From a bacterium (GTDB lineage: Bacteria > SZUA-79 > Acidulodesulfobacterales > Acidulodesulfobacteraceae), in the NCBI GenBank assembly GCA_021821565.1, contig JAKACI010000074.1:1-7370 (forward strand): DNA of 7,370 nt. The letters are read 5' to 3'. The notes below the pieces were generated by a model. The model made no database searches. It was not told where the DNA came from and worked only from the letters and a program-made list of their open reading frames with translations. How positions within the stretch are numbered: position 1 is the stretch's first letter; each line of letters begins with the position of its first letter. This document shows positions 2,101 through 7,370 of this stretch, in pieces. Made by a program: the position numbers and the translations under genes.

Positions 2101-2460
2101 ATGGAACAGAACTCGTTTTTGCCTATTTTGATAATGCTTGTAATAGCAATACTTTTTGCAGTGGTTAATATTGCATTATCCGCTGCGATTGGAAAGAAAA
2201 CTTATGAAAAAGGAAAGCTAAAAGCATATGAGTGCGGCGTCGAACCCGAAGGAGAACCGCATGTCAGATTTGATATAAAATTTTATTTAATCGCAATATT
2301 CTTTTTACTGTTTGATATAGAAGCATTATTTTTATTTCCTTGGGCGGTTATATTTTTAAAGTTAGGTTTATACGGTTTTGTTGAAATGTTTTTATTTATT
2401 GCTATTTTAGTTTTTGGGCTTATTTATATATGGAAAAAAGGAGCGCTTAAATGGGATTAG
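2101..2460 (+). CDS. nuoA: NADH-quinone oxidoreductase subunit A
   Basis: Small membrane subunit of complex I that contacts the peripheral arm near the quinone site. The 119-residue length is typical. Three hydrophobic segments are visible at about residues 7-30, 60-86 and 90-111. The family signature is clear: YECG (43-46), then [13 protein letters not shown] (51-63), then [11 protein letters not shown] (71-81) with the conserved acidic pair Asp72 and Glu74; Glu95 sits in the third helix, as in characterised NuoA. The ATG at 2101 directly follows an in-frame TAA at 2098, so it cannot extend upstream in frame. No Shine-Dalgarno motif is seen; the preceding bases are nearly all A/T. It overlaps nuoB by 10 bases, implying translational coupling, and appears to open the operon. 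Nothing is missing or broken. Assignment is secure. Confidence 0.97.
2438..2443 (+). promoter_or_regulatory. Strong Shine-Dalgarno site for nuoB
   Basis: AAGGAG lies inside the end of nuoA, 7 bases before the nuoB ATG at 2451. It is the only textbook ribosome binding site in front of any start in this window and fixes the nuoB start at the overlapping ATG. Confidence 0.85.
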
Positions 2461-2921
2461 AAGATCATTTAGGGGATAATGTTCTTACGACTGCTTTAGA
2501 TAAATTGGTTTCTTGGGGAAGAAAATGGTCAATTTGGCCTGCTACTTTCGGCTTAGCTTGCTGCGCCATTGAAATGATGACGGCTGCTTCATCCCGTTAC
2601 GACATTGACCGTTTAGGGCTAATATTTCGTTCAACGCCTCGACAATCAGATTTAATGATAGTATCAGGCAGAGTCTCATATAAAATGGCGCCTGTAGTAA
2701 AAAGACTTTATGACCAAATGCCTAATCCAAAATGGGTAATAGCTATGGGTGATTGTGCATGTTCAGGGGGGTTATTTAATGTTTATAGCATTGTCCAAGG
2801 TGTAGATAAAATTATACCCGTGGATGTTTATGTACCTGGTTGTCCTCCCCGCCCTGAATCTCTTATTTACGGCATTGTGAAATTACAGGAGAAAATTGAA
2901 AAAGGAACGTTAAAGATATAA
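2451..2921 (+). CDS. nuoB: NADH-quinone oxidoreductase subunit B (N2 cluster subunit)
   Basis: Peripheral-arm subunit that holds the terminal [4Fe-4S] cluster N2, which passes electrons to quinone. At 156 residues it is at the short end of the family, with a brief N-terminus. All four N2 ligands are present: the tandem Cys37-Cys38 in [10 protein letters not shown], Cys102 in GDCACSGG, and Cys131 in VPGCPPRPE. Other conserved blocks are [21 protein letters not shown] (about 59-79) and the VQGVD segment (115-119). The ATG overlaps the end of nuoA and is preceded by a strong AAGGAG, so the start is well supported. The protein should pack against NuoD and NuoC, encoded next. Cys104, two residues after the ligand Cys102, is an extra cysteine compared with the GSCANSGG form I recall from E. 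coli. No damage is seen. Assignment is secure. Confidence 0.98.
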
Positions 2922-2991: not shown

Positions 2992-3516
2992 ATGAAAAAT
3001 AACAAAGATATGGAACCGTTTTTTGCGCTAAGCGTAATCAAAGATGTGATGCAGAAGAATATTATTTCAACGGATATTTCTAATGATGACGCGCGTATAA
3101 CGACGGCAAAAGAAAATTTGATTGAATTAATAAAATTTATGAAAGAAGATTTAAGGCTTAATTTTGATATGCTCAGCGATCTTTTTGGCATTGATTATCC
3201 AAAAAGAGCTGAAAGAATTGAAATTATTTATAATTTTTATTCTACAAAAAATAATTTTAGATTGTTTGTTAAATGTCATAGCAAAATAGATGAAGCAGAC
3301 TATCCAAGTTTAACATCTATTTATGACTCTGCAAATTGGTTTGAAAGAGAAATTTACGATATGTTTGGCGTTAAGTTTAAAGGTCATCCGGATCTTAAAC
3401 GGATATTAAATCCCGGTGATTGGGAAGGACATCCGCTTCTTAAAGATTACCCGCTCAGGAAGAGACCCTCAATTGAAAGTTTAAATTACGATCTGCCGGG
3501 TTTAGTTGATATTTAG
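2992..3516 (+). CDS. nuoC: NADH-quinone oxidoreductase subunit C
   Basis: Peripheral-arm connecting subunit (30 kDa family) that carries no cofactor and braces NuoB and NuoD. Length is 174 residues, within the range for stand-alone bacterial NuoC; it is not fused to NuoD as in E. coli. The family signature is very clear: [20 protein letters not shown] at about 116-135, followed by [20 protein letters not shown] at 136-155. The N-terminal 60 residues are less conserved, as usual. The chosen ATG at 2992 has no Shine-Dalgarno motif; a second in-frame ATG at 3010 (Met7) is possible, and the signature does not decide between them. A 70-base AT-rich spacer separates it from nuoB, and an AGTAT-N9-ATACT dyad lies 25 bases upstream. 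Assignment is secure; the exact start is less certain. Confidence 0.95.
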
Positions 3517-3601
3517 CAGAATTATTGTTATTGATTTAGTTGAGCTTTATTTTATAAGGTTTTTTATAAACAAACAAATTATATTTCTGGATACTCAATC
3601 T

Positions 3602-4801
3602 ATGCTTGAATACAAAGATTTTCTTATAGACGTAGATGATTTTGCCGTCAATATAGGTCCGCAGCATCCCAGTACTCACGGGGTTTTAAGAATCCTTGTA
3701 AAATTAGACGGCGAGACCGTAATAAGTGCAGAACCTATTATCGGCTATCTTCATACAAGCATGGAAAAATATGCGGAGTTTCGGACGTATCATCAAGCAG
3801 AGACTATCACGGATAGAATGGACTATGTTTCGGGGGCATCCAATAATCTTGGATATATACTTACGGTTGAAAAATTATGCGGAGTAAAACCGCCTAAAAA
3901 AGCCGAGTATGTGAGGGTTGTTCTCACTGAATTGACAAGAATCAGTTCTCATTTGGTTTGGCTTGGAACGCATGCCGTTGATTTAGGAGCGTTAACAGAA
4001 TTTTTATACTGTTTTCGCGAAAGAGAACTTATACTTGATATTATTGAAACGATGACAGGCTCAAGGATGACTCCTTCTTTTTTCAGAGTAGGAGGAATTG
4101 CGATGGATGTTCATCATGATTTTATAGATAAAACACGTGATTTTATTAAAATATTTCCTGAAAAAGTCAACGAATATGAAGCACTGCTTACTAAAAATAA
4201 GATATGGCTTGAAAGAACTAAAAATATAGGAGTAATTTCAGCTGAAGATGCCGTAAGTTTTGCTTTCACAGGTCCCAATTTAAGAGGCAGCGGATTAAAA
4301 TACGATATAAGAAAAATTAATCCATATTCAAGTTATGAAGATTTTGATTTTGATATTCCCGTGGGCGATAACGGCGATGTTTACGACCGCTATTTAGTCA
4401 GAATTGAAGAAATGAGGCAAAGTCTTAAAATTGTAGCTCAAGCGGTTGAAAATATACCAGAAGGGGTTTATTTAAGTTACGATGAGTACCCGCAGTATGT
4501 CATTCCTCCTAAAAAAAGAGCTCTAACTACCATGGAGGGTATGATTTCTAATTTTAAATACGGTATGGATGGAATAAAGCCCCCTAAAGGAGAAGCTTAT
4601 GTTTCTATTGAAAATCCACGCGGAGAGTTAGGCTACTATATTGTTTCAGACGGTTCCGCTTTTCCGTATAGAATGCGTGTCAGACCTCCGTCTTTTTGCA
4701 GTATTAGCGCAATATGCAAAATGTGCAGCGGGTATTTGCTTGCGGATCTTATTTCAATTATTGGAAGTATTGATTTTTTATTAGGAGAAAGCGACAGATA
4801 A
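3602..4801 (+). CDS. nuoD: NADH-quinone oxidoreductase subunit D (quinone-site subunit)
   Basis: 49 kDa subunit of complex I, related to the large subunit of NiFe hydrogenases, forming the quinone pocket with NuoB. From the ATG at 3602 it is 399 residues, the usual size. Conserved blocks: NIGPQHPSTHGVLRI (17-31), GYLHTSMEKYAEFRTYHQ (48-65), TDRMDYVSGASNNLGY (70-85), and the C-terminal IIGSIDFLLGESDR. By spacing, His26 and Tyr75 correspond to the quinone-contacting His38 and Tyr87 of Thermus Nqo4. The frame is open upstream to a TTG at 3506 inside nuoC, but that would add 32 hydrophobic residues with no family resemblance, so I place the start at 3602. No clear Shine-Dalgarno motif precedes it. 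An 85-base spacer follows nuoC. Cys397-type hydrogenase ligands are not expected in NuoD. Assignment is secure. Confidence 0.96.
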   Translation: MLEYKDFLIDVDDFAVNIGPQHPSTHGVLRILVKLDGETVISAEPIIGYLHTSMEKYAEFRTYHQAETITDRMDYVSGASNNLGYILTVEKLCGVKPPKKAEYVRVVLTELTRISSHLVWLGTHAVDLGALTEFLYCFRERELILDIIETMTGSRMTPSFFRVGGIAMDVHHDFIDKTRDFIKIFPEKVNEYEALLTKNKIWLERTKNIGVISAEDAVSFAFTGPNLRGSGLKYDIRKINPYSSYEDFDFDIPVGDNGDVYDRYLVRIEEMRQSLKIVAQAVENIPEGVYLSYDEYPQYVIPPKKRALTTMEGMISNFKYGMDGIKPPKGEAYVSIENPRGELGYYIVSDGSAFPYRMRVRPPSFCSISAICKMCSGYLLADLISIIGSIDFLLGESDR

Positions 4802-4908: not shown

Positions 4909-6813
4909 ATGAAATTAATTAATAAAATTAATCCAAAATTAGATCTTTCATACTTTAAAAGATCGGGACATACCGAAATATCCTCTATACTTAACTGGAA
5001 CGGCGTCGTTTTGCTTGACGACAAGGATAATAAAGTTGACCTTGCAAGGTGTTATATGCAGGAGCTCCAAAAGATTTCCTGCGGTGTTTGTACCCCATGT
5101 ATGATTGGAACTTCGGTTGCCTCCGATATTCTTGAACATATCTGCAACGGTCGTGCTATTTTGGAAGATTTAGATAGATTAAGGAATCAATGCGATTGGA
5201 TTTTATCGTCTTCTAAATGTACCGTGGGGAATATGGGACCATTGGCCGTTACCGAGCTAATTGATAATTTTAGAGATGATTTTGAAAAAGCGATAATAAA
5301 TAAAGAAATTATACCGAAAGGAAATTATATAGTTCATGTTACCGCTCCTTGTATTAACGGCTGTCCGTCAAAACTTGACATTCCAAACTGGATTGAAAGA
5401 GTCAGAGACGGCAGATTCGAAGATGCCCTTGAATCTGCCAGAAGAAGTACCCCGTTAGCGGGTATTTTAGGTAGAAGCTGTTTTCATCCATGTCAGGATA
5501 ATTGCCGCAGAGCAAATGTAGATGAACCTATTCAGATATGTTTAATTAGAAGATTTGCCGCCGATAATGAATTTTATTCTAATATTAAGCCAAAGTTTAA
5601 AATTAAAGATAATGGAATTCAGGTAGCAATCGTAGGTTCTGGCCCCGCAGGTTTAAGCTGTGCATATTATTTGCGTCTAATGGGATACAAGCCTGTTATA
5701 TTTGAAGCATTACCCGTTTTGGGCGGTATGATGAACGTAGGTATCCCAAAGTTCAGGCTTCCGCAAGAATTCTTAGATAAAGAAATTGATTATGTTCTTT
5801 CAACGGGAATTGATTATAAATTAAATCAAAGGCTTGGAACGGATTTTAAGATACAGAATCTTTTTGAACAAAATTTTAAAGCTGTTTTCCTTGCGGTTGG
5901 TGCTCATAAAGGACAAAATATCGGCTTACCCGGAGAAAACGATAATCTTAAAGGTTTTTATGAAGGAGTTAAATTTTTACGCGATGTTACACTTGGAAAC
6001 AAAATAGATATCGGCAATAAAGTCATAATAGAAGGCGGAGGTAACGTTGCCATAGATTGCTGCAGGACTGCAATTAGGATAGGGTTTAAGGAAGTTATAG
6101 TCGTATATAGAAGATCTAGAGAACAGATGCCTGCGGCGGACTATGAGGTTGATCCTGCAATTAAAGAAGGCGTTAAATTTGAATTTTTAACCAATCCCGT
6201 AAGCATTATTCAAGAAAATGGAGTCGTTAAAGGGGTAAGATGTATAAAAATGAAGCTTGGAGACCCTGATGCAAGTGGCAGAAGAAGTCCTATAGAGATA
6301 AAAGGAAGCGATTTTGATATTGAGTGTGATTCATTTATTATGGCAATCGGGCAGGTACCCGATTTTGATTTTTTGAAAGATACGCCGCAGATTAAAACAG
6401 ATAAGGGCAAAACAATAATAGCAGACAAATTTACGCATATGACTGATATGCCCGGAGTTTTTGCCGGGGGAGACGCTTTTACCGGTCCTATTAGCATAGT
6501 TGATTCAAATCGTGACGGTAAAAATGCCGCAAGAAGAATAGACCAATATATAAGAACAGGTTCGTTTGAAGCAACAGACGATTGCCTTTTCGAATATTTT
6601 TTTGAAGAGATTGGTGTTTACGACAAAAAAGAGGTTATAGATTATACTGATTTCCCAAAAGGAAATCTTGCGGCTAAACAAGTGGAAGAACCTGTTAAAA
6701 ACATTATGAATAATTTTGCGGAGATTGATAAGGGTTTAACAAGTGACGACGTTATTTATGAATCTACAAGGTGTATGAGGTGTTATTTTCTTATGCTTGT
6801 AAAGTTTGAATAA
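4909..6813 (+). CDS. NuoF-type Fe-S domain fused to GltD/SfrB-like FAD-NAD(P)H oxidoreductase
   Basis: Predicted cytosolic electron-input subunit: it would oxidise NAD(P)H at FAD and pass electrons through Fe-S clusters to NuoG. The 634 residues fall into three parts. Residues about 25-130 match the end of NuoF: a partial SLBB-like stretch (GVVLLDD...VDLAR) and the N3-type ligands Cys58, Cys61, Cys64 (SCGVCTPC) and Cys104 (SKCTVGNMGP). Residues 140-225 are a Fer4_20 (DPYD domain II-like) cluster domain with APCINGCP (Cys148, Cys152) and GRSCFHPCQDNCRR (Cys191, Cys195, Cys199). Residues 238-545 are a GltD-type disulfide-reductase fold: FAD loop GSGPAG (243-248), dinucleotide loop GGGNVA (376-381), VYRRSREQMPA (399-409), and FAD-binding GVFAGGDAF (516-524). 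A C-terminal RCMRC (621-625) ends the protein. NuoF's FMN/NADH domain is absent. The layout resembles SfrB of Geobacter. It sits where nuoE and nuoF normally are. The ATG follows an in-frame TAA at 4900, so no upstream domain is hidden. Domain calls are secure; NADPH preference and the complex I role are inferred. Confidence 0.88.
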   Translation: MKLINKINPKLDLSYFKRSGHTEISSILNWNGVVLLDDKDNKVDLARCYMQELQKISCGVCTPCMIGTSVASDILEHICNGRAILEDLDRLRNQCDWILSSSKCTVGNMGPLAVTELIDNFRDDFEKAIINKEIIPKGNYIVHVTAPCINGCPSKLDIPNWIERVRDGRFEDALESARRSTPLAGILGRSCFHPCQDNCRRANVDEPIQICLIRRFAADNEFYSNIKPKFKIKDNGIQVAIVGSGPAGLSCAYYLRLMGYKPVIFEALPVLGGMMNVGIPKFRLPQEFLDKEIDYVLSTGIDYKLNQRLGTDFKIQNLFEQNFKAVFLAVGAHKGQNIGLPGENDNLKGFYEGVKFLRDVTLGNKIDIGNKVIIEGGGNVAIDCCRTAIRIGFKEVIVVYRRSREQMPAADYEVDPAIKEGVKFEFLTNPVSIIQENGVVKGVRCIKMKLGDPDASGRRSPIEIKGSDFDIECDSFIMAIGQVPDFDFLKDTPQIKTDKGKTIIADKFTHMTDMPGVFAGGDAFTGPISIVDSNRDGKNAARRIDQYIRTGSFEATDDCLFEYFFEEIGVYDKKEVIDYTDFPKGNLAAKQVEEPVKNIMNNFAEIDKGLTSDDVIYESTRCMRCYFLMLVKFE

Positions 6814-6961: not shown

Positions 6962-7370
6962 GTGGATATTGAAATTACAATAAACGGCAAAAAAATAATG
7001 ACTGAATCGGGTCTTACTATTCTTGAAGCGGCGTCTCAAGCCGGCATAAAAATTCCTGTTTTATGTTATTTAAGGCGCCTTAGACCGATTGGTTCTTGCA
7101 GAATCTGCGTGGTTGAGGTTAAAGGGGTTAAAAATCCTCTTCCGTCTTGCGTTGCAAAAGTAAAAGAAGGCTATGAAATCTTAACCGATACGGAAAAAGT
7201 ATGGGATGTAAGAAAAGAAGTATTGTCGCATCTTTTATTAGATCATCCTCTAGACTGTCCTGTTTGTGATAAATCCGGAGAATGCAGTTTGCAGGACCTT
7301 TCATTCGAATTTGGAATTACAACCCAGAAAAATAAAAAGATATTTCCCGATAGAACTCATATATTTAAAA
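6962..7370 (+). CDS. nuoG: NADH-quinone oxidoreductase subunit G, N-terminal part (cut by window end)
   Basis: Fe-S subunit at the head of the complex I electron wire, here only its first 136 residues. The N-terminus is a plant-type [2Fe-2S] ferredoxin domain with Cys35, Cys46, Cys49 and Cys63 (PVLCY, GSCRICVVEV, LPSC). It is followed by the His-Cys3 cluster motif typical of NuoG and [FeFe] hydrogenases: His95, Cys99, Cys102, Cys108 (HPLDCPVCDKSGECSLQD). The frame stays open to the edge. I chose the GTG at 6962 because in-frame stops lie 15-18 bases upstream, the ferredoxin fold begins straight after it, and AGGGA lies nine bases before. The next gene upstream is the GltD-like fusion, so this could equally be an SfrA-like or formate-dehydrogenase-type NuoG homologue; the missing C-terminal part, with or without molybdopterin ligands, would tell. 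Confidence 0.9.
   Translation, partial: MDIEITINGKKIMTESGLTILEAASQAGIKIPVLCYLRRLRPIGSCRICVVEVKGVKNPLPSCVAKVKEGYEILTDTEKVWDVRKEVLSHLLLDHPLDCPVCDKSGECSLQDLSFEFGITTQKNKKIFPDRTHIFK

Follow-up and report, generated by a model that had tools for sequence, protein, structure and literature searches.

The window analysed here, the whole 7,370-nucleotide stretch of contig JAKACI010000074.1 (assembly GCA_021821565.1, family Acidulodesulfobacteraceae, phylum SZUA-79), carries the start of a nuo operon in which one gene, for a flavoprotein of 634 residues, occupies the slot of nuoE and nuoF. The group concerned consists of uncultured bacteria from acid mines. In our view, the operon probably encodes a variant complex I whose NuoE, together with the part of NuoF that binds flavin mononucleotide (FMN) and NADH, has given way to an SfrB-type NADP(H) subunit that retains the N3 cluster. 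The gene arrangement is real, conserved and repeated, and on this reading it is a modular re-heading of complex I.

Gene order and its conservation in the phylum

The genes of the operon follow each other in the order nuoA-B-C-D, flavoprotein, nuoG (ORF, open reading frame):

2101..2460, + strand: nuoA (PF00507, 124 bits)
2451..2921, + strand: nuoB (PF01058; NCBIfam NuoB above cut-off)
2992..3516, + strand: nuoC (PF00329; NuoC_fam above cut-off)
3596..4801, + strand: nuoD (TIGR01962, 518 bits, above cut-off; start codon uncertain, ORF listed from 3506)
4909..6813, + strand: SfrB-type flavoprotein in the nuoE/nuoF slot, 634 residues (ORF, Pfam, NCBIfam, orthologues)
6962..7369, + strand: N-terminal part of nuoG (PF13510, PF10588; the gene continues past the end of the window)

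The flavoprotein gene is separated by 107 bases from nuoD, which ends at 4801, and by 148 bases from nuoG, which begins at 6962. Because these flanking gaps are so short, neither nuoE nor nuoF can hide beside it. A preliminary description of the window, made from its letters, had given the coordinates of the flavoprotein gene, both gaps and the gene order, as well as domain calls and the numbers of the four N3 cysteines, and the analysis bears all of them out. The ratio of nonsynonymous to synonymous substitution rates of the flavoprotein was 0.056 against its counterpart in the related locus L002, and likewise 0.056 against that of L007, which rules out a chance frame, a pseudogene or a decaying ORF.

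Of the phylum's 30 genomes, 28 encode a full-length orthologue, which is 68-100% identical to the L002 protein; the genomes behind these related loci stand in for the window's own genome in the genome-wide searches. The survey of nuo clusters proposed in the preliminary description gave a uniform result within the phylum: nuoD and nuoG flank the flavoprotein in all 28 loci, one from each of the 28 genomes, an agreement that rules out an assembly artefact, and a similar subunit occurs in seven of 44 loci inspected outside the phylum. Among the 23 longer loci of the phylum, the order nuoA-B-C-D-flavoprotein-G-H-I-J-K-L-M-N is complete in 19, the other four being cut by contig ends. The flavoprotein and NuoG lie between nuoD and nuoH in all 23, and no other ORF of at least 80 residues was found between nuoA and nuoN. 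The core subunits expected of a complex I, NuoA-D and NuoH-N, are thus encoded in one operon (NuoH-N of L002 were identified by NCBIfam), and neither NuoE nor an FMN-binding NuoF appeared among the Pfam matches of the flavoprotein or the ORFs of at least 80 residues between nuoA and nuoN. The full-length nuoG of L002 encodes 707 residues. The nearest relatives of the flavoprotein, 93-96% identical, come from metagenome-assembled genomes labelled Candidatus Acididesulfobacter diazotrophicus, Deltaproteobacteria bacterium or bacterium; outside this group, the identity in the list of relatives drops from 66% directly to 46%.

Upstream of nuoA, the window holds a gene for an M17 leucyl aminopeptidase, before position 1608. 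It is followed by about 490 bases (1608-2100) of approximately 23-26% GC, with no listed ORF of at least 60 residues.

Domains and ligands of the flavoprotein

Judged from its sequence, the flavoprotein is a hybrid of the N3 domain of NuoF, a two-cluster ferredoxin domain, and a GltD/NfnB-type domain for flavin adenine dinucleotide (FAD) and NADP(H). Pfam matched NADH_4Fe-4S (PF10589, residues 44-127, 67 bits), Fer4_20 (PF14691, residues 145-222, 70 bits) and Pyr_redox_2 (PF07992, residues 238-528, 106 bits); it matched neither PF01512 (the FMN domain), nor SLBB, nor PF01257 at an E-value of 0.001. The analysis shows these domains and a predicted fold for the single chain, from which FAD is the predicted cofactor. 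The parts are the following:

4972..5319, + strand: N3 cassette, the NuoF/HydB-type C-terminal domain (residues ~22-137; Cys58/61/64/104)
5341..5574, + strand: GltD/DPD-type domain for two [4Fe-4S] clusters (PF14691; residues 145-222; Cys148/152/191/195/199)
5620..6492, + strand: FAD and NADP(H) Rossmann domains (residues 238-528)
6106..6114, + strand: Tyr400-Arg401-Arg402 (YRR), NADP(H) phosphate-binding motif (68/68 aligned proteins)
6772..6783, + strand: C-terminal CxxC, Cys622/Cys625, displaced first cluster ligands (68/68 aligned proteins)

The preliminary description had proposed that the electron-input head is foreign. This holds for the GltD-type FAD module and fails for the N3 domain, which is NuoF's own: the ~137 N-terminal residues of the flavoprotein match the C-terminal, N3-bearing domain of NuoF. 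Its further proposal, an electron entry by way of FAD, with a GltD-like fold in the nuoE/nuoF slot, is supported by the domains, the presence in 28 of 30 genomes, the cluster ligands and the recurrence elsewhere. We call the protein SfrB-type on the basis of its domain set (PF10589, PF14691 and PF07992, without PF01512), the Geobacter SfrB sequence lying outside the comparison. The flavoprotein has this set, which is expected of the SfrB/NADP-dependent formate dehydrogenase beta family, and the nuo-embedded protein of locus L090, outside the phylum, has the same Pfam matches.

We aligned 68 proteins: 29 from the phylum (the window included), seven from nuo clusters outside it, nine of SfrAB type, and 23 fused proteins, which were defined by length (768-1062 residues; that of L164 is cut by a contig end, and Pfam was run on L091 only). 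The five cysteines of the ferredoxin domain (148/152/191/195/199) and the C-terminal Cys622 and Cys625 are invariant in all 68. The ferredoxin domain of NfnB is preceded by a short segment at the N-terminus, which ends in RCLxC. Positions 602-641 of the family profile, the C-terminal segment of the flavoprotein, align to residues 3-42 of NfnB (4ylf_B), and positions 604-641 to residues 8-45 of NfnI (5jca_L), both alignments ending directly before the start of the ferredoxin-domain match. Therefore, the CxxC has moved to the C-terminus. This circularly permuted ferredoxin domain is common to all 68 relatives and is not special to the nuo operon. Seven cysteines are what two [4Fe-4S] clusters would need if one ligand were not a cysteine, as in NfnB, where that ligand is named as a glutamate (PMC7596348).

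The YRR motif is invariant as well, in all 29 proteins of the phylum and in all 68 of the alignment, and from it we predict that the substrate is NADP(H) rather than NADH. In NfnB the phosphate is held by this triad, which in DsrL-2 is a mark of NADP(H) use (PMC7596348). An unlikely alternative is that the same head has NADH, or both nucleotides, as its physiological donor. Canonical complex I does use NADH, the preference for NADP(H) is read from a motif, and the DsrL of this same order has YNK instead of YRR, i.e., nucleotide use is not uniform (PMC7596348). This alternative has to face the presence of YRR in 29/29 proteins, the role of the triad in NfnB, and the DsrL-2 with YRR, which are held to use NADP(H).

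The predicted iron-sulfur path from the flavoprotein to quinone

The ligands expected of a complex I for N1b, N4, N5, N6a, N6b and N2 are all in place; we name the clusters by motif and by the Thermus numbering. In NuoG, Cys35/46/49/63 (N1b), His95 with Cys99/102/108 (N5), Cys147/150/153/157 and Cys209/212/215/219 (N4 and what looks like a second ferredoxin-type cluster), and Cys245/248/252/277 (N7-like) are kept in 23/23 loci, as are the eight ligands of N6a and N6b in NuoI. The N2 ligands of NuoB (Cys37/38/102/131) are kept in all 21 orthologues found in these 23 loci. The eight cysteines of the ferredoxin region in the nuoG product of L002 (12032-14155) suggest one cluster beyond those of a standard NuoG. 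Despite the N7-like cysteine set, neither Molybdop_Fe4S4 (PF04879) nor Molydop_binding (PF01568) was matched in the partner NuoG at an E-value of 0.001.

These data bear on the possibility that the flavoprotein and its NuoG-like partner form a separate, soluble SfrAB-like NADPH oxidoreductase, leaving the other 11 subunits as a headless, ferredoxin-driven complex I. There is precedent for such a pair: SfrB-type and NuoG-like genes occur together, with no nuo membrane gene in the stretch, in nine loci of other genomes, and the NADPH-dependent formate dehydrogenase of Moorella contains SfrB and SfrA subunits (PMC13040438). Yet, in every one of the 23 longer loci the two genes are placed between nuoD and nuoH, and the N3 motif is not equally well kept in the two kinds of protein. 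The four-cysteine set is present in 29/29 proteins of the phylum, and the third cysteine is kept in six of the seven nuo-embedded proteins outside it and in 23/23 fused proteins, whereas it is a glycine in five of the nine SfrAB-type proteins (L084, L093, L103, L158, L160). Such a contrast would fit a current-carrying role of N3 in the complex I form, although the numbers are small and the rows related. The lack of the two molybdopterin-type domains in NuoG, unlike the two formate dehydrogenases scanned, points the same way; this argument is weak, since the split NuoG of L090 has both domains. We regard the soluble enzyme as improbable.

NuoE- and NuoF-like proteins elsewhere in the genomes

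The preliminary description would have been contradicted by a second full nuo operon with nuoE and nuoF. We sought one in the phylum and found none: each of the 28 genomes with the flavoprotein encodes a single strong NuoH (418-434 bits), the other PF00146 matches scoring 77-121 bits, and a second complex I is rejected on this basis. NuoF-like proteins (PF01512) are present in 18 of the 30 genomes (14/23 and 4/7) and absent from 12; proteins with PF01257 are also found in 18. A NuoEF protein adjoins a formate dehydrogenase alpha-like protein in all ten loci inspected, from nine of the 18 genomes. The latter proteins have 931-1152 residues (one is cut by the end of its stretch), and the two pairs given to Pfam both showed PF00384 and PF01568, one of them also FdsD. 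No NuoEF linked to nuo genes was seen in the phylum as far as searched (30 genomes, ten NuoEF loci). It is extremely unlikely that NuoE- and NuoF-like proteins encoded elsewhere dock on this complex I and that the flavoprotein is an extra: their occurrence in 18 genomes would allow it, and their absence from 12 and their formate dehydrogenase neighbours in the ten loci inspected, from nine of the 18 genomes, oppose it.

In four of these ten loci (L114, L115, L116 and L118), a NuoE-NuoF fusion and a formate dehydrogenase alpha gene stand beside NuoB/D/L/M-like genes (24-38% identity). These are probably a group 4 hydrogenase-like module, and the whole set is possibly a membrane-bound, NAD-linked formate or hydrogen enzyme.

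Other ion pumps were searched for in the same 30 genomes, with control genomes giving positive results. PntB reached its cut-off in none of them (one weak match fell below it), and the same holds for NQR2/RnfD/RnfE. The searches for NuoH, PntB and NQR2/RnfD/RnfE, which did not include NDH-2, thus brought up no ion-pumping NAD(P)H dehydrogenase in the phylum other than the one of this nuo operon.

Similar subunits outside the phylum

The flavoprotein-headed arrangement is not unique to this group. We searched two overlapping samples of 291 and 386 genomes, scoring the top four or three candidates per genome, and inspected 44 loci (30 and 14) of limited length, some at contig ends. Seven carry an SfrB-type gene in a nuo cluster, three carry a longer fused protein near nuo genes (L091, L094, L100), and the remaining 34 have no nuo membrane genes in the stretch. 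The clusters of the seven genomes are A-B-C-D-SfrB-G-H-I-J-K-L (G264) and D-SfrB-G-H-I-J-K-L, cut by the contig (G126), both with nuoG split in two; A-B-C-D-SfrB-G-G'-H-I-J (G347); SfrB-G-A-B-C-D-H..L-M (G363); and SfrB-G-J-K-L-M (G200, G053 and G292, the last also with N). All genomes of the phylum of G264 (two) and of that of G200 (three) have the flavoprotein. In L090 (3272-5959) and L088 (3287-5971), nuoG consists of two adjacent genes, for about 350 and 530-540 residues, and the pieces of L090 bear full molybdopterin-type domains (PF04879, PF00384, PF01568).

In a phylogenetic tree, the nuo-embedded proteins occupy four separate positions and need four changes, gain and loss being indistinguishable. 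A single clade for them was rejected (difference in log-likelihood of 81.7; approximately unbiased test, p = 9.8e-18). The rows of the phylum were thinned to 11 of 29, and five of the 44 outside loci (L096, L106, L108, L111 and L113) took no part in the alignment or the tree; the branches of L156 and L157 are long, and a program warning concerns the joining of L157 to the rows of the phylum.

Five of the seven genomes encode PF01512 proteins elsewhere (G264, G363, G200, G053, G292), and G126 and G347 have none. We inspected seven of these loci (L171-L175, L183, L184). The ~450-residue proteins of L171, L172, L174 and L184 have no similarity, or less than 40 bits, to the NuoEF and formate dehydrogenase references, and we provisionally take them for RnfC-like proteins. 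L183, from G264, is a NuoEF/HydB-like set.

The three fused proteins near nuo genes, of about 1020 residues, combine the N3 and GltD parts with SLBB and NuoF's FMN domain (Pfam on L091 only):

L091, 5987-9067: fused protein near nuoH-I-J
L094, 4711-7791: fused protein near nuoH-I-J
L100, 3209-6268: fused protein near nuoA-B-C-D

Such proteins could conceivably endow complex I with an NADPH/FAD site as well as an NADH/FMN site. A second NuoG-like gene is found in the stretches of L091 and L094.

Proposed electron flow and its energetics

In the re-headed complex I, NADPH would hand a hydride to the FAD of the GltD-type module, from which electrons would pass singly to the N3-type cluster by way of the ferredoxin-like domain and its two [4Fe-4S] clusters. 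Their onward route to quinone would lead over NuoG (N1b, N4, N5), NuoI (N6a, N6b) and NuoB (N2), with proton pumping by the membrane arm during this NADPH:quinone reaction. There is a structural parallel for the first steps: cryo-electron microscopy of StnC resolved a GltD domain that holds NADPH and FAD and is accompanied by two [4Fe-4S] clusters, with a linear route leading on from there, and its authors describe the NADPH-oxidising subunit as an electron input module able to replace a hydrogenase subunit (PMC10482914). In the opposite direction, the proton gradient could drive the formation of NADPH from quinol, as might suit an acidophile with a large gradient.

The head might instead bifurcate or confurcate, its FAD splitting or merging electrons among NADPH, ferredoxin and the wire of complex I. 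The fold is shared with NfnB, whose FAD bifurcates (PMC7483475), and a bifurcating complex I, Nuo-Bfu, has been proposed (PMC9304861). We consider this very improbable, as the operon offers neither an NfnA nor a BfuB/C partner (no other ORF of at least 80 residues lies between nuoA and nuoN), and the FAD of StnC and Nfn-Bfu has been argued to be a plain entry for NADP(H) and not the site of bifurcation (PMC10482914, PMC9304861).

With approximate in-cell potentials of -280 mV for NADH, -380 mV for NADPH and -74 mV for menaquinone (PMC9304861, Table 1), the driving force to menaquinone is about 306 mV per electron from NADPH vs 206 mV from NADH. If menaquinone is the acceptor, NADPH would be enough for pumping four protons and NADH would not, because two electrons yield ~612 meV and 412 meV, respectively, against the 600 meV needed at an assumed 150 mV.

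Several points weigh against an NADPH-driven complex I of this kind, and its weakest links are the physical assembly of the flavoprotein with NuoG and the motif-based assignment of the nucleotide. The flavoprotein is missing from two small genomes (1.0 and 1.3 Mb) among the 30: G028 has a partial NuoH (306 bits) and a match of 104 bits, and G029 only a match of 106 bits. The genomes of the phylum are metagenome-assembled, so that absences are soft. The full-length NuoG of L002 scores 281 bits in TIGR01973, under the cut-off of 470. YRR is equally invariant in the SfrAB-type and fused relatives, and is thus no marker specific to complex I; in one of the seven nuo-embedded proteins outside the phylum, a glycine replaces the third N3 cysteine. 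Finally, a NuoE-NuoF pair is encoded elsewhere in G363, next to a NuoG/formate dehydrogenase-like gene (L175), and in this genome the flavoprotein head may be an addition rather than the sole replacement.

Complex I is usually described as fuelled by NADH, as headless and fuelled by ferredoxin, or, in a proposal, as bifurcating. We tentatively suggest, at somewhat less than even confidence, that bacteria have repeatedly converted it into a pump that runs on NADPH, a GltD-type FAD module taking over from NuoE and NuoF's FMN domain while the N3 domain that carries it stayed in place. If true, this would be an NADPH counterpart to the proposed ferredoxin-boosted Nuo-Bfu, and it would tie the anabolic nucleotide pool directly to the proton gradient. 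The N3 domain of NuoF would then be a socket for different flavin modules, and users of menaquinone would have a testable route to enough driving force for pumping.

Comparison with known systems

Tan et al. (2019) reported that the nuo complexes of the four genomes of this order are nearly complete except for nuoE, nuoF and nuoG (PMC6776010). L002, from Ca. Acididesulfobacter diazotrophicus isolate AP1, appears to come from one of them. It has nuoG (L002:12032-14155), and its E/F slot is filled by the flavoprotein, which corrects the published annotation of the three genes as missing. Searches of the open-licence full-text literature, with most subscription papers and all supplements out of reach, turned up no account of complex I carrying an SfrB/GltD-type head.

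Canonical 14-subunit complex I shares with this system NuoA-D, NuoG-N and the ligands from N1b to N2, and differs by its NuoE and the FMN and SLBB domains of NuoF, in place of which there is here an FAD/NADP(H) module. NuoE and NuoF are also missing from the 11-subunit headless complex I and from the complex I of Helicobacter and Thermoplasmatales, for which the sections concerned describe no replacement subunit (PMC11238625, PMC10669018). The 11-subunit form lacks NuoG too, whereas here NuoG is present in 23/23 loci and the slot is filled. Nuo-Bfu, proposed from gene clusters (Schut et al. 2022, PMC9304861), is likewise a complex I with a replaced electron-input module, NuoEFG giving way to a bifurcating FMN module. 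Its FMN-containing BfuBC core is described as using NADH and ferredoxin, whereas this operon encodes no FMN-domain protein.

Another close system is the family of SfrB (Geobacter SfrAB) and the beta subunit of the Moorella NADPH-dependent formate dehydrogenase. The relatives at ~39-46% identity share the three domains of the flavoprotein and have a similar length, and many are labelled formate dehydrogenase beta subunit by their sources. In that family the partner is SfrA or FdhA, whereas here it is NuoG, with nuoD on the other side, in a full nuo operon. The closest solved structures are those of the StnABC/NfnABC transhydrogenases (8oh5, 9bov, 9n5u), in which a GltD-like FAD/NADPH domain is wired to a NuoG-like domain. 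Their partner is a bifurcating module (HydB/HydC-type or NfnA), none of which is found among the ORFs of at least 80 residues in this operon. In Stn and Nfn, the NuoG-like subunit has the GltD domain fused into it, and the electrons go to an FMN bifurcating module; here, in contrast, the GltD domain is joined to the N3 domain of NuoF and would feed a membrane pump.

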